Positions 2,852 through 14,945 of a stretch of DNA of 49,169 nucleotides are shown here, piece by piece. Below the pieces are notes generated by a model. That model made no database searches. It saw nothing but the letters and a program-made list of their open reading frames with translations, and was not told the origin of the DNA. Made by a program: the position numbers and the translations under genes. The number at the start of each line of letters is the position of its first letter. The first letter of the stretch is position 1. This DNA comes from an uncultured Spartobacteria bacterium (GTDB lineage Bacteria; Verrucomicrobiota; Verrucomicrobiia; Chthoniobacterales; Terrimicrobiaceae): positions 1-49,169 of the forward strand of contig CALAPX010000129.1 in assembly GCA_937888355.1 (NCBI GenBank), read 5' to 3'.

Positions 2852-3496
2852 ATGAAACCCTATTCCACCCTAGGAACTCCCATTGCCGTCATTTTTTTGA
2901 TTGCTGCATTTACCGCGATTGTCTGTGCCGAAGACACCTCGACCTACAAGATCAATAAAATTGAGCCTGCCTTCCTTGATAGTCCTGAAATCTCCGCTAG
3001 TAACTACCGGAAGCAAGTAAAGACCAAAGCGAAGTGGTTGGAAGTCGATCTCTCACTCGAACGTGTTGACCGCGACGAGAAGTCTTTTTCCGGAGATGTG
3101 GTGATTAATTACTACATTCTATTGAATAATGCGAAACACCAAACTGATGGGAAGCCGGTCTTGCTAACGGGTTCGATTACTCTCAGCGATATCCCTGTTG
3201 GCCGACAATTGCATGCAGCGGCATTTGTGAGTCCGCAAGCTCTGCTCAAATTATTTGGCGGAAAAATTCCCGCAACCCTTTCTCAAGCAATAACCGACCT
3301 TGGAATCACCATCACGGCAAATGATCAATTAGCTTCTATTGACACACTGAAAGGAACGGTGGTTGGAGAGAAGGGTTGGTGGGACTCTGGAGCCGATGAG
3401 ATGACAAACGTCACTGGCCTAGTTCTACAAAAAGAGAAAACGCCATTTGCCAACCTCTCTTGGGACTACTACCTGCCCGCCAAAATTTCGCCTTAG
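2852..3496 (+). CDS. Exported Amuc_1102-like protein of the secretin operon
   Basis: This 214-residue protein starts with a signal peptide: a hydrophobic core at about residues 10-24 and a likely cleavage after IVCA. The mature part looks beta-rich, with a WLEVDLSLER strand near residue 65, a YYILLN strand, and a WWDSGADE motif near residue 175. It has no enzyme motif. By position (first in the operon, just before pilM), size and export signal it corresponds to Amuc_1102 of Akkermansia muciniphila. That match is from memory of the locus and was not aligned. The gap to pilM is 17 bases. It is probably a periplasmic or surface part of the machine; its role is unknown. Confidence 0.75.
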   Translation: MKPYSTLGTPIAVIFLIAAFTAIVCAEDTSTYKINKIEPAFLDSPEISASNYRKQVKTKAKWLEVDLSLERVDRDEKSFSGDVVINYYILLNNAKHQTDGKPVLLTGSITLSDIPVGRQLHAAAFVSPQALLKLFGGKIPATLSQAITDLGITITANDQLASIDTLKGTVVGEKGWWDSGADEMTNVTGLVLQKEKTPFANLSWDYYLPAKISP

Positions 3497-3513
3497 CTAT
3501 TTTCTCTCAGTTC

Positions 3514-5262
3514 ATGGCCAAGCCGTCACACATTCTTACTCTTAACCTAGGCATGCAAACTGTCAGCATGGCCGAGTTTGAGGCTTTGCCTGGAGATGGC
3601 TTGAGACTTATTGGGTTCCAGGAAGCTGAAATGATTTTGGATCCCGGGGCCGATGCCACCCGACCGGATCAATTGAAGTCATTGATCCAAGAGATGCTCG
3701 CCTCGTTGTCTCCAAAGTCATCGATTCCCATTTACGCATGCCTTCCCTCGCAATCAGTTTTCTCCCGCTTCGTGCAACTGCCCGGGGAAACAGCCGAGGA
3801 TGTCGAATCAATCATTCCCTTTGAGGCCCAACAAAACGTCCCCTACCCCATCGACGAAGTTGTTTGGGACCATCAACTCATGGGGCAGAAGCAAGGAGAT
3901 ACATGGGATGTGGGCTTGGTTGCAATCAAGGCAGACCAACTGGATGACCTTGTAGCCGCCATCAAGCAAGGTGGACTGCAAGTGCAGGCGCTGGATTTGG
4001 CTCCCATGGCCCTCTATAACGCGCTTCGCTACAACCAGCCCGACCTCCCCGGTTGCACACTTGTGATTGATATCGGCGCACGTTCTACAAACCTTGTTTT
4101 TTCCGAAGGAGACCGTGTGTTTTGCCGCAACATTCCGATCGCCGGCTTTACCATTACTGCTGCAATTGCCAAAGAGTTCGAGCAGGATCTTGTTCTGGCC
4201 GAAAAACTCAAAATCGAAAAGGGCCAAGTCGGCCTCGGGGGCGCTTATGCTGAGCCAGCTGATCCCACCGAAGCGCGCATAGCCAAAGTTGTTCGCAATA
4301 CTCTCACGCGACTCCATGCGGAAATTTCGCGATCGATCAACTTTTATAGGACTAACCACAACGGAAACGCCCCCGTCCGCGTCTTTTTAGCTGGCGGCAC
4401 CGCCAAACTTCCCTTCGCCACGGATTTCTTCTCCGAGAAACTCAAAGCGCCTGTGGAGTTCTTCAACCCACTCCAAAATGTCGAAATCCAACCCGGTTCC
4501 ATTCCCGGAGCCACAGCAGCTTGCGCCTCCGGGATTGGGGAACTAGTCGGTTTGGCCCTGAGATCCCTCAAGGACTGCCCTGTTGAGCTTAACCTCACCC
4601 CTCCCTCTGTGGTCAAAGCGATCGACCTCAAGCGTCGTATTCCCTCATTCGCTCTGGCGGCTGTACTCTTAATTTTTTCTTCCGCCCTATGGTTTGGCTA
4701 CTTTGCTACCCGCGAACGATCCATTCGGCACAAATTCAACACGATAGAGAAGGAGACCGCCTCACTGAAGAATCTTTCTGCAGACATAGAACAGGCGTTG
4801 GATAAGCAAAAAAAACTCGAAGCCAATGCTCTTCCATTTCTCTCCGCTGTTGCCGAGCGTACTATTTGGCCGGATCTACTTGAAGAACTGGGCGCTAAGA
4901 TGCCTTCTCGTTTTCTCTGGATCACCAAACTCAGCCCAATCGAAGGGACGCTTCCAGGCGCTGCACGGCCTGTTGCTCAAAAAAAATCAGTAGACCGCCG
5001 CGAACAGAAACCCCCAATTCCCGTCCTGCAGCCGGCCATTGTGGCGCTTCATGTCGAGGGGCTGTATTTGGACAATCCCCCTAATAAGGAAGCGGCTGGT
5101 ATTGTTGATGAATTTGTTAATCGCCTAGATGCCTCCACCCTCTTTGACACCTCTGGCGATCGCACCCAAATTATCACCCAGCGCACCACACCCACCGGCG
5201 AAACATGGGCTTATGGCTTCACTCTACGATTGCCATTAAAAACCCCTATCCCCCTCCCATGA
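3514..5262 (+). CDS. pilM: PilM-PilN fusion protein (Amuc_1101-like)
   Basis: The 582-residue protein starts at ATG 3514; an upstream in-frame start would overlap the previous gene. Residues 1 to about 350 form an actin-like PilM domain, with an N-terminal HILTLNLG strand, the PilM segment IIPFEAQQNVPYPIDEVVWD, the phosphate-binding VIDIGARSTNLVF and a later VFLAGGTAKLP. After a linker a single membrane helix (about 390-410) is followed by a coiled-coil-like stretch and a globular end, the layout of PilN. Pilus systems usually encode PilM and PilN separately, so this is a natural fusion tying the cytoplasmic ring to the inner membrane. Its stop overlaps the next start (ATGA). Confidence 0.88.
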   Translation: MAKPSHILTLNLGMQTVSMAEFEALPGDGLRLIGFQEAEMILDPGADATRPDQLKSLIQEMLASLSPKSSIPIYACLPSQSVFSRFVQLPGETAEDVESIIPFEAQQNVPYPIDEVVWDHQLMGQKQGDTWDVGLVAIKADQLDDLVAAIKQGGLQVQALDLAPMALYNALRYNQPDLPGCTLVIDIGARSTNLVFSEGDRVFCRNIPIAGFTITAAIAKEFEQDLVLAEKLKIEKGQVGLGGAYAEPADPTEARIAKVVRNTLTRLHAEISRSINFYRTNHNGNAPVRVFLAGGTAKLPFATDFFSEKLKAPVEFFNPLQNVEIQPGSIPGATAACASGIGELVGLALRSLKDCPVELNLTPPSVVKAIDLKRRIPSFALAAVLLIFSSALWFGYFATRERSIRHKFNTIEKETASLKNLSADIEQALDKQKKLEANALPFLSAVAERTIWPDLLEELGAKMPSRFLWITKLSPIEGTLPGAARPVAQKKSVDRREQKPPIPVLQPAIVALHVEGLYLDNPPNKEAAGIVDEFVNRLDASTLFDTSGDRTQIITQRTTPTGETWAYGFTLRLPLKTPIPLP

Positions 5263-6164
5263 ATTGGCTTAAAGACAACAAATTCCTCGTTGCCGCCGGT
5301 GTAGCTGTATTGATAGCCGTTGTATCGCTTGCCTTTTTTGCCGGAGTTGCGGCTCATTCGCATGATGAGGCTCTTGCCACTTACAATGCTGAAGTCCAAC
5401 AACTGGATGCCCTGAAAAAGCAAATTCCCTACCCAAGCAAGGGCAATTTGAAAGCTATTAATAAACAATCGGCATCATACAACGACGCCTTCAGCGTCCT
5501 TCAATCCACCTTAACCGACTTGGATGCGCCTGTGGACAACACCATCACCCCACAGGTTTTTCAAGATGAACTCCGCAAATCGGTGGATTCACTGGTCTCA
5601 AAAGCAAATAAAAACACCGTCGCCCTTCCAGAGACTTTCTATTTGGGTTTCGATGAGTTTCGCACACGCCTTCCCTCTAAAGATGAAGCCGTTACACTCA
5701 ACCCTGAATTCAAGGTTCTTAATACACTTTTAAATCAACTGGTCGACCTTAAGTTGCTCAGCATCGACTCACTATTGCGTCTTCCTCAACCCCCATCACC
5801 TGAGGGTGATAATTCCTCGATTTTGAAGAGACGGTTCAGCATTTCCTTCACCGCGCCACAGGACAAATTGATTGCGGCTTTCAATGAGGTCTCCAACTCA
5901 AAATATTTCCTCATCATTCGCTCAGCCTCATTTGAAAACTCGAATCCAGATCCCCCACAGAAGATATTTTCCGATAAAATAATGCAACCGGCCACTCCTC
6001 CAAGGCCCCTGCGCCCAATACAACAGATCAATCAAAAAGATGCGGTTGATACCCACCTCCATGTTGTTGTCGGTAATGAGATTGTTACTTCTACGCTCCT
6101 TGTCGAAATTCCAACCTTCCCAGAGCTAGCCAAGGAATCCACAACCTTCAAGCCTAAGCCATGA
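5259..6164 (+). CDS. Amuc_1100-like PilO-type inner-membrane protein
   Basis: This 301-residue protein has a short cytoplasmic start (MNWLKDNKF), one membrane helix (about residues 10-30), a coiled-coil-like region and a periplasmic alpha/beta domain. From memory it resembles Akkermansia Amuc_1100 in several places: the W-x-x-DNK start, the TPQVFQDELRKSVDSLVSKA helix, the YLGFDEF segment and the LNTLLNQLVDL helix. Amuc_1100 is reported to act on host TLR2 and is thought to belong to a pilus-like complex. A Pro-rich linker precedes the C-terminal strand. The start follows the ATGA overlap with pilM; a longer in-frame start at 5205 is less likely. Confidence 0.85.
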   Translation: MNWLKDNKFLVAAGVAVLIAVVSLAFFAGVAAHSHDEALATYNAEVQQLDALKKQIPYPSKGNLKAINKQSASYNDAFSVLQSTLTDLDAPVDNTITPQVFQDELRKSVDSLVSKANKNTVALPETFYLGFDEFRTRLPSKDEAVTLNPEFKVLNTLLNQLVDLKLLSIDSLLRLPQPPSPEGDNSSILKRRFSISFTAPQDKLIAAFNEVSNSKYFLIIRSASFENSNPDPPQKIFSDKIMQPATPPRPLRPIQQINQKDAVDTHLHVVVGNEIVTSTLLVEIPTFPELAKESTTFKPKP

Positions 6165-7132
6165 TGGATTGGATCAAAAAGCACTACGATCTCTCGGTTC
6201 TCGCTATTGCATTATTCATGTTGGTTGCAAGTACGGGCCTTGTCTTTTGGACTGCTAAATCATCGGATCAAGAATTATTGGAACCCGCATCCATTCCCGC
6301 GAATGATGAAATCCCCGATTTTAATGTCTCGTCTGTTTCTAGTGCGCAGCAAAAGGCATCACATCCCACCAAATGGATTTACTCCGGCAACGATTCCTCC
6401 CGAGCCTCTCTTCTTGTCTCCCGAGCCTATCTGCTGAAAGACGGTAAGCTTTTCGATCCAATTGAGGGAAATGAAAACCTTCACCATCCCATCACCAACG
6501 CTTGGTTGATTCAGCACGGGTTGGACTATACCGCCAAAGACATCAAATCCAGAGATTCTGATGGTGATGGATTCTCAAACCTTGAGGAATTCCTCGCCGG
6601 AAAAAGCCCCGTTGATCGCACATCAAAGCCGGCTGCTTATAATAAGCTAAAGCTCATCGCCTTTAAATCCCTGCCCTTCCGCATCATTTTTAAAGGCGAC
6701 CCCTCTGGTTCCGCCAAAGAATTTCAGCTCAACTTTCTCGAACTCCAAGGAGCCGCACGCACGCAGTATAAAAAGCTAAATGACGTCATCGAAGGTGCCC
6801 CCTATAAAATCGGGCGTTACGAGGAAAAAAAATCTATTGATGCTCGAGGCATTCCTGTGGATGCATCAGAATTGACGTTGGAAAATATCGAAAATGGCCA
6901 CACCATTATTCTAGTGAAGGACAAACAAACGGATGACCCACGATCCGAGGGGACATTTTTGAATCAAATCACAGCTGAGACCTTTATCCAAAAAAAGGGT
7001 GAGACTTTCCTACTGAAGCCCGACCAGATCGAATTCAAAATCATTGACATCAACCCCGACTCCGCGCAGATACAGGACACTAAAACTGGGCAAACTTATC
7101 GGATTACCAAGGATTCTAAAAACCCCCAATGA
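6161..7132 (+). CDS. Amuc_1099-like periplasmic protein with a TSP3-type calcium loop
   Basis: This 323-residue protein has an N-terminal membrane anchor (about residues 9-31) and a periplasmic body. Around residues 130-145 it holds DSDGDGFSNLEEF, a full DxDxDGxxxxxE loop followed by LAGKSPVD. That is the pattern of bacterial thrombospondin type 3 repeats and EF-like calcium loops. The C-terminal part contains beta-rich segments ending in DPDSAQIQDT-like sequence and resembles periplasmic adaptor domains of the PilP type, but I cannot show homology by eye. It lies at the Amuc_1099 position and overlaps both neighbours by 4 bases. It probably links the inner-membrane complex to the secretin. 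Confidence 0.75.
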   Translation: MMDWIKKHYDLSVLAIALFMLVASTGLVFWTAKSSDQELLEPASIPANDEIPDFNVSSVSSAQQKASHPTKWIYSGNDSSRASLLVSRAYLLKDGKLFDPIEGNENLHHPITNAWLIQHGLDYTAKDIKSRDSDGDGFSNLEEFLAGKSPVDRTSKPAAYNKLKLIAFKSLPFRIIFKGDPSGSAKEFQLNFLELQGAARTQYKKLNDVIEGAPYKIGRYEEKKSIDARGIPVDASELTLENIENGHTIILVKDKQTDDPRSEGTFLNQITAETFIQKKGETFLLKPDQIEFKIIDINPDSAQIQDTKTGQTYRITKDSKNPQ

Positions 7133-9648
7133 GATTTTCTTCCCGTTTCTTTATGTTTTGCTTGATAGGGATTGTTGTTATTGTCGGACTGCCTGTTGTA
7201 TCCGCGCAATATCCTGGCGTCCAAGGCGCTGTAGAACGCCAGATTCAAGAACTTGAACAGAAGAAGCTCTACTCAGCTGCGTTAGTTCAAAAAGGCGATT
7301 TGGCGACTGCCTCAATGGATTACGAAGAGGCTTACTCTTTCTATAAGAGCGCTGTTGACACCTTGCCGCTGGCGGGAGCTGCCTCAGCGGATGTACGCCA
7401 GCAAGCTTTAGAGGGTTTTTGCAAAGCCGCCCACAAACTTGCTCAGCTCCGGGTTTCACAAGGCCGCTACGCGGATGCCAAAACCACTATTGAGGTCATT
7501 CTTGAAGAACGTTATAATCCTAGTTACGGACCAGCACTTTCACTCCGCTCCCAACTTGTCGACCCGAAGGCATTTGTTGATCGCGGCACACTGACTCCTC
7601 AACATGTCGCGCGAACGGAGGAGGTGAAGCGCCTTCTTCAAGAGGCTAAGGGCTTCGAGGCTTCTGGTCGATTCGATCTTGCCTTTAAGCGCTGTGAGCA
7701 AGCGCTCAACCTCGATAAATACAATATCGCCGCCAGGCGTTTCATGGAAAAAATAAACGTGGCAAGATCAACCTATGCCACAGCAGCCTACAATGAAACA
7801 CGCACCGCCGTCCTTGCAGAAGTTTCAAAAGCATGGGAGCTCCCTGTAACAAAATTCACTGATGCGCCTACGTCCCTCATCGAGCAACCAGAAATAGCCG
7901 GGCGCACGACACAAGGGATCCACGAAAAACTCGATGCCATTATTATCCCATCAATTGAGTTTAATGACGCTTCGCTCCGCGTGGCGCTAGACAACCTGTG
8001 CCGTCGAGCTGCTGAACTCGATACTATTGAGCCAGACCCAGCGAAAAAAGGGATTAATATTCTCGTTAAGAAATCTCCAGGTGAAACCGACTACCCAATC
8101 ACCTTTGACGCCACAAATCTCCCGCTTCGTGCGGTATTAGATTACATCGCGAGTTCCGCTGGCATGAAGGTTAAAGTCGACCCACATGCAGTCGTGTTCG
8201 TACCCATGTCCGAAAATACGGACATTCTTTTAACAAAAGAATACAAGGTCCCACCCAGCTTTATGCAAGGAGCCCCTTCCGGAGCCAGCCAGCCTTCGAT
8301 TGGCTTGTCCTCCGCATCCCAGCCTGCGATCGAAGCCCGATCATTCAATGCCAAGAATTTCCTTGAATCGCAGGGGATCACTTTTCCAGAGGGCGCAAGC
8401 GCTAACTACCTTCCAAGCTCAAGCCGACTGATTGTGAAAAACACAATATCTAGTCTAGAGAGCGTGGATGCCCTTGTGGAGGCATCAATTGCTGAGCGTC
8501 CAACCCAAGTCGAGATTGAAACTAAATTCCTCGAAGTGACACAAAACAATCTTAATGAACTAGGATTCGATTGGCTTCTCGGCCAGTTTTCACTCCCTGC
8601 TGGCTCTGGAATTTATGGTGGTGGTGGTACCGAAGGGTTCGCTCGCACCATCTCCGCCCCTTCATATCCGATGATCAACCCAGCCACCGGTCTTCCAGTT
8701 GGAGCCTCTTCTGGGACCTCAGGCCCAATCACTGCAGGGAACCGCAGCGGAGCTGGAAGCCGCTTTGGCACAGCTATTCAACTCAACGCAGTTGACGCCC
8801 TTCTACTAGGGGGGGCAGGGCTATCTGGCGCCGCTCCTGGCATCCTGTCTCTCGCCGGTGTCTTTACCAACCCACAATTCCAAGTTGTGCTCAGGGCTCT
8901 CAGCCAGAGCAAAGGAATCGATCTAGTTAGTGCCCCTAAAGTTACTACCAAAAGTGGGATGAATGCGAAAATCGAAATCGTTCGAGAGTTTAGATATCCT
9001 ACTAATTTTGATCCGCCTCAACTATCAAAAAGTCAAGGCACCACCTACTCTCCAGTAGTTCCCAACACACCTTCTTCGTGGGATGTAAAAAATACCGGCA
9101 TTACCTTGGAAGTTGTTCCTACAGTAGGCCCCGATCTTTACACGATTGACCTTCAATTGGTTCCAAGAGTAATTGAGTTTGATGGGTTTATAAATTACGG
9201 AAGCCCAATTTACGCCACTGTGGAAAATGCTACTGGTGCGCTTGATCTTATAGGAATTGCTCGCCCTTCCTTCACTTTTGAAGCTACCTCAAATAATATA
9301 AACATGCCCGTGTTTTCAACCCGTGAGGTTGAAACCACGGTTTCTGTCTATGATGGAGAAACTGTTGTGATGGGTGGCCTCATGCGTGAAGATGTTCAAA
9401 AAGTTCAAGATAAGGTCCCTATTCTGGGCGACATCCCCCTCGCTGGGCGGCTTTTTCGCTCAAATGTAGATCAACACGTGAAACGCAATCTAATCATGTT
9501 TGTCACAGCTAGGCTTATGGATCCTGCAGGCCAGCCAATCATGGAGGAACTGGATAACTCTTTAGTATTGAGCCTTGATCCCGATATTGCGGCCCCCATG
9601 GATGACTTGATTCCAGAAGATCCAGACTCCCTCCCACTTTCGCAATGA
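7129..9648 (+). CDS. Outer-membrane secretin, first copy (Amuc_1098-like)
   Basis: The 839-residue protein has a signal peptide ending near VVSAQ (residue 27) and a helical TPR-like region (about 30-220, with YEEAYSFYKSA and FDLAFKRCEQAL). Ring-building N domains (about 270-480) include NLPLRAVLDYIASSAGMKV. The secretin core (about 490-810) opens with VEIETKFLEVTQNNLNELGFDW. The C-terminal end carries the hallmark secretin block VVMGGLMREDVQKVQDKVPILGDIPLAGRLF. Secretins form gated outer-membrane pores for pili or type II secretion. The TPR region in front of the N domains is unlike classical PilQ or GspD. It overlaps its paralogue by ATGA. Confidence 0.93.
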   Translation: MRFSSRFFMFCLIGIVVIVGLPVVSAQYPGVQGAVERQIQELEQKKLYSAALVQKGDLATASMDYEEAYSFYKSAVDTLPLAGAASADVRQQALEGFCKAAHKLAQLRVSQGRYADAKTTIEVILEERYNPSYGPALSLRSQLVDPKAFVDRGTLTPQHVARTEEVKRLLQEAKGFEASGRFDLAFKRCEQALNLDKYNIAARRFMEKINVARSTYATAAYNETRTAVLAEVSKAWELPVTKFTDAPTSLIEQPEIAGRTTQGIHEKLDAIIIPSIEFNDASLRVALDNLCRRAAELDTIEPDPAKKGINILVKKSPGETDYPITFDATNLPLRAVLDYIASSAGMKVKVDPHAVVFVPMSENTDILLTKEYKVPPSFMQGAPSGASQPSIGLSSASQPAIEARSFNAKNFLESQGITFPEGASANYLPSSSRLIVKNTISSLESVDALVEASIAERPTQVEIETKFLEVTQNNLNELGFDWLLGQFSLPAGSGIYGGGGTEGFARTISAPSYPMINPATGLPVGASSGTSGPITAGNRSGAGSRFGTAIQLNAVDALLLGGAGLSGAAPGILSLAGVFTNPQFQVVLRALSQSKGIDLVSAPKVTTKSGMNAKIEIVREFRYPTNFDPPQLSKSQGTTYSPVVPNTPSSWDVKNTGITLEVVPTVGPDLYTIDLQLVPRVIEFDGFINYGSPIYATVENATGALDLIGIARPSFTFEATSNNINMPVFSTREVETTVSVYDGETVVMGGLMREDVQKVQDKVPILGDIPLAGRLFRSNVDQHVKRNLIMFVTARLMDPAGQPIMEELDNSLVLSLDPDIAAPMDDLIPEDPDSLPLSQ

Positions 9649-12254
9649 CACCACACGTTTTCCTATTTGCCGCACGCCGCTCTTGCATGTCCCATGCGCT
9701 TTCATGGATTTTCCCCGCTTTTATTTCCCTGATGTTGCTGCCCCCGCTCTTTGGTCAATCCCCTCCAACCATCGTGACGACCTCGGAAAATGAGATCGCC
9801 CGACGTCAAGCGCGCGTCATGGAAGCGGAGAAACTTCTTGAAAAATCCCACCGGGAAACTTCTGATAAAAATTGGGCTTCCGCTTATGATATTGCCTTTC
9901 AAGCTGTTGAATTAATTCCTTCCGGCCAGGCTACTGAAGCCATGCGTAAAACGACCATTTCAATATTTTCCAATTGTGCCATGGATTTTGCAAATTGGCT
10001 CATCGGACAAGGCCGCTACAATGAGGCTGAACGCGTTGCCAAATCTGTCCTTGCCCCATCAATAAATCCCAACTTTAAACCAGCCGCTAAGTTATTAGCA
10101 AATCTCGAGCAACAAGATTATTACAATAAAACTATCGATCCTCCTTTTGCCGTGCGACGCGATGACACCCAGAAGTTGCTTGATCAAGCGGAAGGGTTCT
10201 CCGCCACCGGTCGATACGATCTCGCCCAGAAGCGTTATGAGGAGGTTTTAAATCTCGATTCCTATAATATTGCCGCCCGCCAAGGCTTGGAGTCTTTAAA
10301 TAATAGAAGAACAAAGTATTACGAGACATCATATAATGAAACGCGTAGCCGTTTGCTCTGGCTTGTTGAACAGTCGTGGAATAGGTCTGTGCCAAAGCGC
10401 ACTGAGGCTACTCGATCAACCGCGATGTCAACATATCAAGTTGCACAAGAATCCAAAGCCTCCATCACTAGTAAACTTAACAAGATCGTCTTAGATAAAA
10501 TCTATTTTCCTGAGGTTACTGTTCGTGAGTTTGTTGATTTTCTAAAGTTTGAAAGCCGCAAACTGGATCCGGATAAACAAGGGGTTAATATCGTTCTCAA
10601 GCTTGGCAAAGACCCCCAAATTGGTAGCTCTGATTCTGAAGTCTCCACTTCAACCCAAACCACTCCATCCACAAAAATTTCAATCTCTCCAGCTATCACA
10701 AATATCCCTCTGATAGAGGCGATTCGCTACCTCACTGAGTTATCTGATCTAAAATATAAAATTGATCCTTTTGCGGTGGAAATTCTTTCTCCTTCTGCTT
10801 CCACCGAGGATCTTGTGACTAAAGAATACCGTGTCTCCCCCGGCTTTATTCCTGTCTCCGCCAGCGAGGGATCCAGCCCCGCTATGGGGTCTCGCTCTTC
10901 AGATGATAATACACGACTGTCCGATCGACGTGATGCTAAGATATTTCTGGAAGAACAAGGTGTCCCTTTTGCCAATCCCGATGCCTTTGCCCGCTATATT
11001 CCTTCAGGTAGCCGCCTTATCGTTAGGAACACTCAGTCTGCTATCGACACTATCGATACTATTATTGAGGGAGAAATGGGCGTTGCCCCAAATCAGGTCG
11101 AAATCGAGTCGAAATTTGTCGAAATTTCTCAAAACAATTTGAATGAGTTAGGGTTTGATTGGCTTCTCGGTCCATTATCCATAGGAGGAGGAATGTATGG
11201 GAACGGCGGAACAATGGGCCTGGGCCAAGAAACCTCTGGCGACTACTATAGTAATTACCCATTCAATCAAGTGGGTGGAAATCCTGTTACAGCAGGCACG
11301 CGATCAGGTATCGGCACTGGATTAAATTCTGCAATAACCGCTAACAGTATTGACGCTTTAATTGCTCAAGTCCCACAAGGTTTTAATGTGGCTAGCCCTA
11401 GTATTTTCGGTATTGCCGGTGTATTCTCCAACCCCCAGTTCCAAATGGTGATCCGTGCCCTAAGCCAGCAAAAAGGTGTTGATCTCATGTCGGCCCCTAA
11501 AGTCACCACAAAGAGCGGCAGCAAAGCAACCGTCAAAATTGTACATGACTTTCCATATCCTGAAAGCTTTGAGCCCCCTGAGGTTCCGGAGTCATCGGCT
11601 GGTGGTGGTGGAAATAATAATAATGGTGGTGGTGGTGGTGGTGGTGCTAGAGAAGGCATTGTTGTTACGTCGTCTATCATTACACCCGCCAATCCGACAG
11701 ATTTTACTAACCGAGAGCTTGGCGTGACATTAGAAGTCGAGCCTGTGGTTGGCGCGGATAATTATACTATCGACCTTTATCTTTCTCCGCGCGTCGTCAA
11801 TTTTGATGGATTTGTGAACTATGGCTCTCCTGTTATTGGCCCCCGCTTCAACCCAGCTTCTATCCTTGTTGGAAACCCATCAGGCATTGAGACCTACGTC
11901 ATCACTCCCAACACAATGAACCAGCCGATCTTTTCTGTTAGATCCGTTGATACGAATGTCACCGTTTGGGATGGTCAAACAGTTGCTCTCGGTGGACTTA
12001 TCCGTGAAGATGTGCAAAAAGTCCAAGATAAGGTTCCTCTTCTTGGCGATATCCCACTTGCAGGAAGATTGTTTCGCTCAAATGTGGATCAGACTATAAA
12101 GAAAAACTTGATCATTTTTGTTACCGCACGCTTGATGGACGCCCAAGGTCAACCACTAATCCAACAAAACATTGAAGAAGAGTTTGTTGATTTGCTCGGT
12201 TTGCCTGAAGATTTACCTCAGCCTGCCTTCCAATCCGCAAAATTCGGGAAGTGA
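9645..12254 (+). CDS. Outer-membrane secretin, second copy (tandem paralogue)
   Basis: The 869-residue protein has the same architecture as the gene before it: signal peptide (ending near LFGQ), TPR-like helices with YDLAQKRYEEVLNLDSYNIAAR, N domains and a secretin core with VEIESKFVEISQNNLNELGFDWL. The last about 70 residues are nearly identical to copy one over LIREDVQKVQDKVPLLGDIP. The N domains have diverged more, and a Gly/Asn run (residues 653-667) is found only here. The start at 9645 keeps the 4-base overlap used throughout the operon; an ATG at 9687 would give a tidier signal peptide. Two secretins in a row suggest either a mixed ring or two machines sharing one inner-membrane platform. 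Confidence 0.92.
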   Translation: MTPHVFLFAARRSCMSHALSWIFPAFISLMLLPPLFGQSPPTIVTTSENEIARRQARVMEAEKLLEKSHRETSDKNWASAYDIAFQAVELIPSGQATEAMRKTTISIFSNCAMDFANWLIGQGRYNEAERVAKSVLAPSINPNFKPAAKLLANLEQQDYYNKTIDPPFAVRRDDTQKLLDQAEGFSATGRYDLAQKRYEEVLNLDSYNIAARQGLESLNNRRTKYYETSYNETRSRLLWLVEQSWNRSVPKRTEATRSTAMSTYQVAQESKASITSKLNKIVLDKIYFPEVTVREFVDFLKFESRKLDPDKQGVNIVLKLGKDPQIGSSDSEVSTSTQTTPSTKISISPAITNIPLIEAIRYLTELSDLKYKIDPFAVEILSPSASTEDLVTKEYRVSPGFIPVSASEGSSPAMGSRSSDDNTRLSDRRDAKIFLEEQGVPFANPDAFARYIPSGSRLIVRNTQSAIDTIDTIIEGEMGVAPNQVEIESKFVEISQNNLNELGFDWLLGPLSIGGGMYGNGGTMGLGQETSGDYYSNYPFNQVGGNPVTAGTRSGIGTGLNSAITANSIDALIAQVPQGFNVASPSIFGIAGVFSNPQFQMVIRALSQQKGVDLMSAPKVTTKSGSKATVKIVHDFPYPESFEPPEVPESSAGGGGNNNNGGGGGGGAREGIVVTSSIITPANPTDFTNRELGVTLEVEPVVGADNYTIDLYLSPRVVNFDGFVNYGSPVIGPRFNPASILVGNPSGIETYVITPNTMNQPIFSVRSVDTNVTVWDGQTVALGGLIREDVQKVQDKVPLLGDIPLAGRLFRSNVDQTIKKNLIIFVTARLMDAQGQPLIQQNIEEEFVDLLGLPEDLPQPAFQSAKFGK
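11601..11645 (+). repeat. In-frame GGT/AAT triplet repeat in the second secretin
   Basis: The stretch reads three GGT and one GGA, four AAT, then seven GGT, in the reading frame, giving G4-N4-G7. It sits in a loop of the secretin core between the EPPEVPES segment and the next strand. The first secretin has an unrelated sequence there. Slipped-strand changes would lengthen or shorten the loop without a frameshift. Confidence 0.9.
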
Positions 12255-13141: not shown

Positions 13142-13175
13142 TACCTTTTTTTATAATGGCTTGAAGAAGCCAATC

Positions 13176-13657
13176 ATGAAAGTATTTGTTATCCTCCTCT
13201 GTTTATTGATCCTATCCTTCTCCTCTTCTGCAAACCAACTTGATGTGGCAATGATCCGTTTTCCTGAACCAAAAACAGAATCCTCTCTTAACGAATAACT
13301 CTCCGCCACAACCCTCAATAACTCTGACCGTACAAAAACTAAAATTCACACTCTTAAAGGTGATGTTATTTTTTATCAATCTCTTGTGATTTCGCCCTTT
13401 TTTTCTTCATCTACCCGCTTTTCCTTACTTCATTCATCGCTGAAGGGCTCCTGTGATGGTAACGTCCTTTCACTAGATTTAACCCTTTCCGATGGCGTGG
13501 ATGAGGCCCTCCGCCTCTTTTCTTCTCATACATTTAAAGGCTCCCTTCGCGTGGTTTCCTTTCGTACGATCATAAAAAACACACCTTTTCCAAAAAAGGC
13601 CGTGTTGATACAAATGAAACCGCCTACACCTACACCCTCATAGCTCAAATCAATTGA
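13176..13657 (+). pseudogene. Decayed gene for a small exported protein (nonsense plus frameshift)
   Basis: An ATG at 13176 opens a frame with a clear signal peptide (KVFVILLCLLILSFSSSANQ). TAA stops it at 13296-13298 after 40 codons. The same frame is then open from 13299 to 13643 with coding character, including NVLSLDLTLSDGVDEALRLF. Near two A6 runs (13574-13579 and 13592-13597) reading appears to slip. The other frame ends in a much more protein-like tail, KKGRVDTNETAYTYTLIAQIN, with TGA at 13655. So two lesions, one nonsense and one indel, separate an about 160-residue exported protein into pieces. The family was not recognised. Sequencing error in the A runs could explain the frameshift but not the TAA. 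Confidence 0.6.
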
Positions 13658-13967
13658 CTTAGCGGTTGTGCAAAACATGTGAGTTTTTGCGGATAACCAT
13701 TAATAAAATCACTCTCTATTTGATTTATCTTTTTCTTTTCTCTTAAAAACTCCCGTTTTTCACAGGTCTTCTTCCCCGTGGAACGCCTTTCAATGAGACG
13801 AGGAACACAATTCTTCATGATTGTTCACACCCTTAAGAAGAATAAGAATGTAATGATTTTTTAATTCTTCTATAATCTCTGTGAAAAACTTCGCTAAGGC
13901 TTGTATCAAGACTTGGCTCTTCATTGAAATGAGGTAAAATGCCTGATCTAATTTAACAGTTCAAATA
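13658..13967. other. AT-rich intergenic stretch before the DHS-like gene
   Basis: These 310 bases hold no coding frame I can support. They are AT-rich with several short A/T runs. A possible promoter lies near the right end. A single half of the trmL palindrome (GTGGAAC) occurs near 13778, but it is not a full site. Confidence 0.5.
13913..13940 (+). promoter_or_regulatory. Possible sigma-70-type promoter of the DHS-like gene
   Basis: A TTGGCT box (13913-13918) and a TAAAAT box (13935-13940) are 16 bases apart. They end 27 bases before the ATG at 13968. The match is moderate and the region is AT-rich, so chance matches are likely. Confidence 0.3.
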
Positions 13968-14945
13968 ATGTCACTCAGTCCAGTTTCAGATTTCATAGAC
14001 CTTCATTACCGCCACTTCAATGCAGCATCACTGAAAGATGCCGCAGAGGCTTATACAAAGCATTTGGAATCAGGTGGAGTCATGCTCATGACCCTTGCTG
14101 GAGCCATGAGCACAGCGGAACTGGGAATATCTCTCGCTGAAATGATCCGATTAGGAAAAGTTCATGGCATCGTTTGTACTGGAGCAAACCTTGAGGAGGA
14201 CATTTTCAATCTTGTCGCGCATGATTTCTATGAACGGATTCCTCACTATCGGGACCTCACACCCGCAGATGAGCAAGCCCTTTTGAAGCGACATATGAAC
14301 AGAGTGACAGATACCTGCATACCAGAGATGGAAGCGATGCGCAGGATCGAAGATGTAATCCTCAAAGAATGGATGAATGCGGATGCGCAAGGAGAGCAGT
14401 TTTTCCCTCATGAATTCTTCTGGAAGATCCTTGAGTCGCCGGAACTGAAAAAAAATTTCCAGATAGATCCAAAAAACAGCTGGATGATCGCTGCAAAGGA
14501 AAAAAACCTGCCGATCTTTGTCCCTGGTTGGGAGGATTCGACACTCGGAAATATGTATGCTGGTCATTGTATCGAAGGGACTATCAAAAATATTCACACC
14601 GTAAGGTCAGGGATTGAATACATGATTTCACTTGCTGATTGGTATGCGCCTACAAGCCATAAGACCCCCATTGGATTCTTCCAGATCGGCGGCGGGATTG
14701 CTGGGGATTTTCCCATCTGTGTCGTTCCTATGCTTCATCAGGATCTACGCCGCACAGATGTCCCTCTATGGGCGTATTTCTGTCAGATCAGCGACTCCAC
14801 AACCAGCTACGGAAGTTATTCAGGAGCTGTCCCTAATGAAAAAATAACATGGGGGAAGCTTGGAGAGAAAACGCCAAAGTTTATTATTGAGTCAGACGCC
14901 ACTATTGTAGCTCCACTTATCTTCGCCAAAGTTCTCGGATGGTAG
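13968..14945 (+). CDS. Deoxyhypusine-synthase-like protein (possible homospermidine synthase)
   Basis: This 325-residue protein belongs to the deoxyhypusine synthase fold. It has the NAD-binding start TLAGAMSTAELG, the GIVCTGANLEEDIFNLVAHD segment and the C-terminal SGAVPNEKITWGKL. The last holds the lysine (Lys297 here) that forms the imine intermediate in eukaryotic and archaeal enzymes. Bacteria have no eIF5A substrate, and some bacterial members are known to make homospermidine from spermidine or putrescine. A polyamine role is therefore likely but inferred. No other polyamine gene is in the window. The gene stands alone, 70 bases before metF on the same strand. Confidence 0.85.
   Translation: MSLSPVSDFIDLHYRHFNAASLKDAAEAYTKHLESGGVMLMTLAGAMSTAELGISLAEMIRLGKVHGIVCTGANLEEDIFNLVAHDFYERIPHYRDLTPADEQALLKRHMNRVTDTCIPEMEAMRRIEDVILKEWMNADAQGEQFFPHEFFWKILESPELKKNFQIDPKNSWMIAAKEKNLPIFVPGWEDSTLGNMYAGHCIEGTIKNIHTVRSGIEYMISLADWYAPTSHKTPIGFFQIGGGIAGDFPICVVPMLHQDLRRTDVPLWAYFCQISDSTTSYGSYSGAVPNEKITWGKLGEKTPKFIIESDATIVAPLIFAKVLGW

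Follow-up and report, generated by a model that had tools for sequence, protein, structure and literature searches.

A tandem pair of secretins in a probable pilMNOPQ-type operon, related to the Amuc_1098-1102 cluster of Akkermansia, of a Spartobacteria bacterium

In model type IVa pilus bacteria, the pilMNOPQ genes stand apart from those for the pilin and the motor ATPases. In the Verrucomicrobiota, the Akkermansia locus described as MUL2, also referred to as the Amuc_1098-1102 cluster, is frequently retained among Verrucomicrobiales and less frequently among Chthoniobacterales, while Methylacidiphilales do not have it (PMC13174399). MUL genes have been tied to the uptake of mucin products in Akkermansia (PMC12418764, PMC13174399). 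Here, we analyzed a stretch of 49,169 nucleotides (the window) from an uncultured Spartobacteria bacterium, of the Chthoniobacterales family Terrimicrobiaceae. The window is contig CALAPX010000129.1 (C129) of a 2.62 Mb assembly (GCA_937888355.1; 404 contigs, 91% complete). It carries an operon of the MUL2 type in which the secretin gene is present twice, in tandem. Its core of five genes has been described before and is covered by curated families. In the literature searched, with subscription literature outside the search, the tandem pair, duplicated once, seems to be without a description.

Six genes, all on the + strand, were found by open reading frame (ORF) reading of the window between positions 2852 and 12254. 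The first encodes an Amuc_1102-like exported protein with an ordinary Sec-type signal peptide (2852..3496, 214 aa). It is followed by a predicted Amuc_1101-like PilM-PilN fusion (3514..5262, 582 aa), an Amuc_1100-like, PilO-like protein with a predicted inner-membrane anchor (5259..6164, 301 aa), an Amuc_1099-like protein in the PilP position (6161..7132, 323 aa), and two secretins of the Amuc_1098 family, A (7129..9648, 839 aa) and its tandem paralogue B (9645..12254, 869 aa). A first-pass annotation of this interval, made from the letters alone, had listed five genes ending in a single secretin. Its order of exported protein, PilM-like, Amuc_1100-like, Amuc_1099-like and secretin genes was right, but a gene was missing from its count, as there are two separate and complete secretins. 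The 4-base overlaps that it had seen from pilM onward are real, and occur as ATGA stop-start overlaps at four junctions (5259-5262, 6161-6164, 7129-7132 and 9645-9648). The last of these (9645..9648, + strand) joins the stop of secretin A to the start of secretin B, and the same -4 junction is found in the nearest relative (locus L113) and in several other families. At 6161, the letters ATGATG permit an alternative start 3 bases further, with an overlap of 1 base, and secretin B has an alternative start at 9687. Scans for promoters and terminators gave signal at chance level only, and an Rfam search of the window gave zero matches.

Curated NCBIfam models named all six products as the matching Amuc families, with E-values of 4e-27 (1102), 5e-179 (1101), 1.2e-43 (1100), 1e-47 (1099), and 7e-240 and 5e-230 (the 1098 copies). 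Scores were above the curated cut-offs for 1102 (NF042424, 95 bits, cut-off 55), for 1099 (NF042425, 163 bits, cut-off 50) and for both secretins (NF042912, 798 bits for A and 766 bits for B, cut-off 750), which also matched PF00263. The 1101-like protein, matched over its full length, scored below its cut-off (NF045709, 597 versus 650 bits), as did many of its relatives, and it matched PilM_2 (PF11104, 7e-31). The score of the 1100-like protein was also below the cut-off (NF038287, 150 versus 180 bits), with the match covering the N-terminal 236 residues.

Secretins A and B of the window are 41% identical. Each has a signal peptide and a full secretin domain, and A has a TPR-like N-terminus. 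Reading of the DNA showed A and B to be adjacent in 34 genomes of Chthoniobacterales, from six families (f1, f3, f5, f6, f85 and f86). The inspected operons of four other families (f2, f81, f83 and f84) have a single secretin. One operon secretin was also the rule in the wider phylum sample, with two exceptions, a genome from another order (G078) and an unplaced named locus (L239). Overall, a 1098-family match scoring higher than the curated cut-off was present in 120 of 213 Chthoniobacterales genomes, and in most loci open to inspection the remaining operon genes accompany it. The closest relative was Terrimicrobiaceae bacterium M30B24 (81% identity in secretin A), and the nearest named relatives were records from Spartobacteria, Terrimicrobiaceae and Chthoniobacterales. 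Spartobacteria bacterium LR76, whose record carries no MAG label, is one of the relatives with the tandem. In some genomes, the family search also returned frames of ~1720-1770 aa across both copies, which would be fused double secretins; at the DNA level, a stop separates two ORFs there, and this candidate was rejected.

In a 48-protein tree, all A copies grouped in one clade (support 100/99) and all B copies in another (100/100), and A and B together stood apart from the single-copy Chthoniobacterales (96/91). A quick tree of 112 proteins agreed, save for the long-branched genome G281. The 112-protein tree also ruled out that B is the orthologue of the unlinked second secretin of Verrucomicrobiales, which is kept independently, away from the operon. 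The PilM tree was compatible with the tandem families as one lineage, at a resolution insufficient to decide. The A/B pair is consistent with one old duplication, in an ancestor shared by six or more families of Chthoniobacterales. One assembly (G482) contains the tandem pair twice, in differing versions (L115 and L116), one of them near-identical to that of G125, and is probably a mixed bin. The whole operon is very fast-evolving in two lineages (L037 in G281 and L124 in G589).

The two secretins could simply serve dosage, with near-equivalent copies giving more of an outer-membrane protein that is made in very large amounts. Fixed differences between A and B are few, as this explanation would have it. 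At those positions, however, A has the same residue as the single-copy relatives, and the substitution is in B (L/Y, R/L, A/S, P/A). Redundancy alone predicts neither such B-specific changes nor two fully supported clades whose members are only 40-53% identical within one genome, and we consider dosage unlikely.

The tandem genomes have one full-length PilM-PilN (Amuc_1101) gene each, with only fragmentary matches in G281, so two distinct secretins would serve one inner-membrane complex. With few exceptions among the loci, the A-B junction measures between -4 and +26 bases, also when a gap of ~100 bases precedes A. This persistent adjacency favours co-operation of the two, and we infer that A and B work together on one pilus. 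It is quite possible that they do so as two homomeric channels, each copy building its own ring, with a shared PilMNO complex and with different times, surfaces or substrates of action. The completeness of both copies fits such a division. To our knowledge, all model secretins are homo-oligomers, and this, together with the independent second copies of Verrucomicrobiales, which suggest that extra channels are tolerated unlinked, favours separate channels. Separation of the genes would then be expected in some lineages, whereas the copies are direct neighbours in 34 genomes, and the junction between them is mostly tight. A more tentative proposal is a mixed ring, in which A and B co-assemble into a single hetero-oligomeric channel of the outer membrane, so that the pilus secretin would have two components. 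It would account for the constant adjacency with its frequent 4-base overlap, for the presence of one PilM-PilN per two secretins, and for the retention of both copies of one old duplication across six families. The proposal draws on gene evidence, and the literature search turned up no mixed secretin ring for comparison. If true, such a ring would be unlike the homo-oligomeric rings known for secretins.

The four products encoded upstream of the secretins were characterized by profile and fold searches. The sequence profile of the 1102-like protein matched solved Amuc_1102 (7dsz, E 1e-49), and a Pfam search with this protein gave zero matches. A prepilin identity was ruled out for it, as the class III signal motif is absent; there were no N_methyl matches on contig C129. 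The 1101-like protein has an actin-like PilM domain (residues ~1-352), a membrane helix (~375-400) and a periplasmic PilN-like part. A profile of 34 relatives matched Myxococcus PilM over the first 351 positions (3jc8_M, 2.8e-66) and Myxococcus PilN over the stretch after the PilM domain (2.2e-9), and the C-terminal part alone matched Myxococcus PilN with an E-value of 1.2e-10. Because of the successive PilM and PilN profile matches with a membrane helix in between, the protein is, by its sequence, a PilM-PilN fusion. The 1100-like protein gave profile matches to solved Amuc_1100 (6lad/6kny, 1e-65). Its predicted fold (mean pLDDT 87) had Amuc_1100 as best match in the PDB (6laf, E 1.8e-13). 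The best non-Amuc matches were PilO of Myxococcus and Pseudomonas, with 2rjz (Pseudomonas) and 5uvr at probability 1.00, but E-values of only 0.0036-0.027. By its modelled fold, this protein is PilO-like.

For the 1099-like protein, alignment and predicted model point to an N-terminal membrane anchor and two beta-rich C-terminal domains, the latter without detectable homology to one another. A fold search gave zero structural matches. What suggests that the protein takes the role of PilP, linking to the secretin, is its place in the operon. The alignment also showed a calcium-loop-like DxDxDGF motif at residues 132-138. The motif opens an EF-hand/TSP3-like calcium loop at residues 132-143 (window positions 6554-6589; DSDGDGFSNLEEF), which is conserved across many classes. 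In distant relatives (L139, L141, L142 and L146), a zinc-ribbon-like CxxC pair immediately precedes this loop.

These results bear on the likeness to Akkermansia that the first-pass annotation had proposed. Homology and gene order were confirmed by the NCBIfam families, by the profile matches to solved Amuc_1102 and Amuc_1100 and by the predicted 1100 fold. The structural comparison that it had suggested thus gave matches for 1102 (7dsz, by profile) and 1100 (6laf, by predicted fold); 1099 has no solved counterpart and matches its own NCBIfam model. Its wording of 'full synteny' holds for the order of the core, but a second secretin had been overlooked, and on either side of the operon the genes are unlike those described for Akkermansia.

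Genes for pilus motors and prepilins were found elsewhere in the genome. Contig C142 has two PilB-type ATPase genes, the first truncated by the contig end. PilB scored 587 bits, below the cut-off of 676, and is therefore called by family resemblance and pairing only. PilT and PilU, both on contig C391, scored 439 and 424 bits, over the curated cut-off of 319. The genome has seven prepilin-type N-terminal motifs, all away from the locus. A genome of the same family (G471, locus L101) has 102 such motifs in 4.8 Mb. The type II secretion system (T2SS) forms a separate cluster. Contig C315 carries GspE, GspF and a GspD-type secretin belonging to that system, and contig C388 has pseudopilin-like genes; GspE, GspF and the pseudopilins go with this GspD-type secretin and not with those of the window. 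The complete relative G125 has a PilB-PilB pair, a separate PilC, a PilT-PilT pair and a GspE/GspF pair. In two complete Akkermansiaceae-like genomes (G113 and G021), a single PilB-PilB-PilC cluster has a prepilin-like gene after it, and a PilT-PilT pair is also present. PilC and GspF were compared across genomes through their shared family PF00482. Seven of the nine sampled genomes without a 1098 match also have no PF00482 match, and likewise G057, which has a spurious 1098 match only. The other 17 of 17 genomes in this comparison have PF00482. Thus, clades without the secretin mostly lost PilC too. In the 0.9 Mb genomes G057 and G036, which belong to the same genus as G589, the 1098 system, PilC and prepilins are all absent.

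That the locus has no pilin or assembly ATPase, as the first-pass annotation had remarked, is correct for the locus and not for the genome. The same absence had led it to suggest that the locus may be an envelope machine in its own right and not a standard type IV pilus. A separate machine without relation to a pilus is very unlikely. The genes have a PilM-PilN-PilO-(PilP)-PilQ composition, PilB, PilT/PilU and prepilins are encoded elsewhere, and there is partial co-loss with PilC. A locus without pilin and ATPase does not imply a separate machine, because the model pilMNOPQ clusters stand alone as well.

Most probably, judging from its gene content, the operon belongs to a type IVa-like pilus, for which it encodes the trans-envelope alignment complex and the gate in the outer membrane. 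In the 1101-like protein, PilM in the cytoplasm is joined to PilN in the membrane, and this fusion would form an inner-membrane complex with the PilO-like 1100. The 1099-like protein, in the place of PilP, would link this complex to the PilQ-type secretins (1098), which would be the outer-membrane gate, with 1102 as an exported accessory protein. Genes outside the locus would supply PilB/PilC to drive the pilus and PilT/PilU to retract it. A single duplication of the secretin gene would have preceded the divergence of six or more Chthoniobacterales families, which have kept the two copies as neighbours. By analogy with MUL2 of Akkermansia, the pilus may help to attach to and capture glycan-rich particles.

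Several observations weigh against this interpretation. Domain-wise profile, Pfam, PDB profile and fold searches detected no PilP homology in 1099. A major pilin was not identified among the prepilin genes of this genome. PilC was not found in the 91% complete assembly, where the sole PF00482 gene is GspF of the T2SS. The co-losses of secretin and PilC come from only two independent clades, and one further clade (G108 and G146) has PF00482 yet no 1098 match, so that the co-loss evidence is supportive, not strong. As to the single duplication, an origin before the split from the single-copy families was not rejected (A grouped with the single copies, p-AU 0.157).

With the PilM-PilN fusion and the PilO-like protein, the medically discussed Amuc_1098-1102 cluster would be a pilMNOPQ-type module across the phylum, in which Amuc_1101 is the PilM-PilN fusion and Amuc_1100 is PilO-like. 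This would explain the location of the pilin and motor genes at other sites. The tandem, being conserved, offers a natural case for asking if a secretin ring can hold two different subunits, or for what reason a single pilus machine should retain two gates.

Downstream of the operon, the window has ~830 bases (13142-13967) with neither a listed ORF of at least 100 aa nor an Rfam match. The gene that follows (13968-14945) is deoxyhypusine synthase-like or homospermidine-biosynthesis-like, at 126 bits, below the curated cut-offs. This family is best known from archaea and eukaryotes.

Among known systems, the T2SS of the same genome (C315 and C388) includes a secretin too, along with GspE and GspF, but it is a separate cluster with a GspD-type secretin. 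The type IVa pilMNOPQ clusters of Myxococcus and Pseudomonas share with the window the order PilM, PilN, PilO, (PilP position), PilQ, and their motor ATPases and pilin are likewise encoded elsewhere. The window differs from them in that PilM and PilN are one protein, 1102 is an extra exported protein, two PilQ-type secretins are present, and 1099 shares the position of PilP without detected homology to it. Closest is MUL2 of Akkermansia muciniphila, with the same five families in the order 1102-1101-1100-1099-1098 and, as here, a secretin with a TPR-like N-terminus (PMC5332112, PMC4960237, PMC13174399). In the window, a second secretin lies directly downstream, the flanking genes differ, and the genes overlap, whereas Akkermansia-type loci (L043 and L045) have gaps of 29-73 bases. 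The second Amuc_1098 paralogue of Akkermansia-type genomes is at a distant chromosomal site, and the tree does not place it as the counterpart of B. Two adjacent secretins after the same operon are also found in G078, from another order, where A and B pair together with long branches, as would fit a duplication of their own. With two secretins instead of the typical one, the operon of the window is a variant of the MUL2 system.
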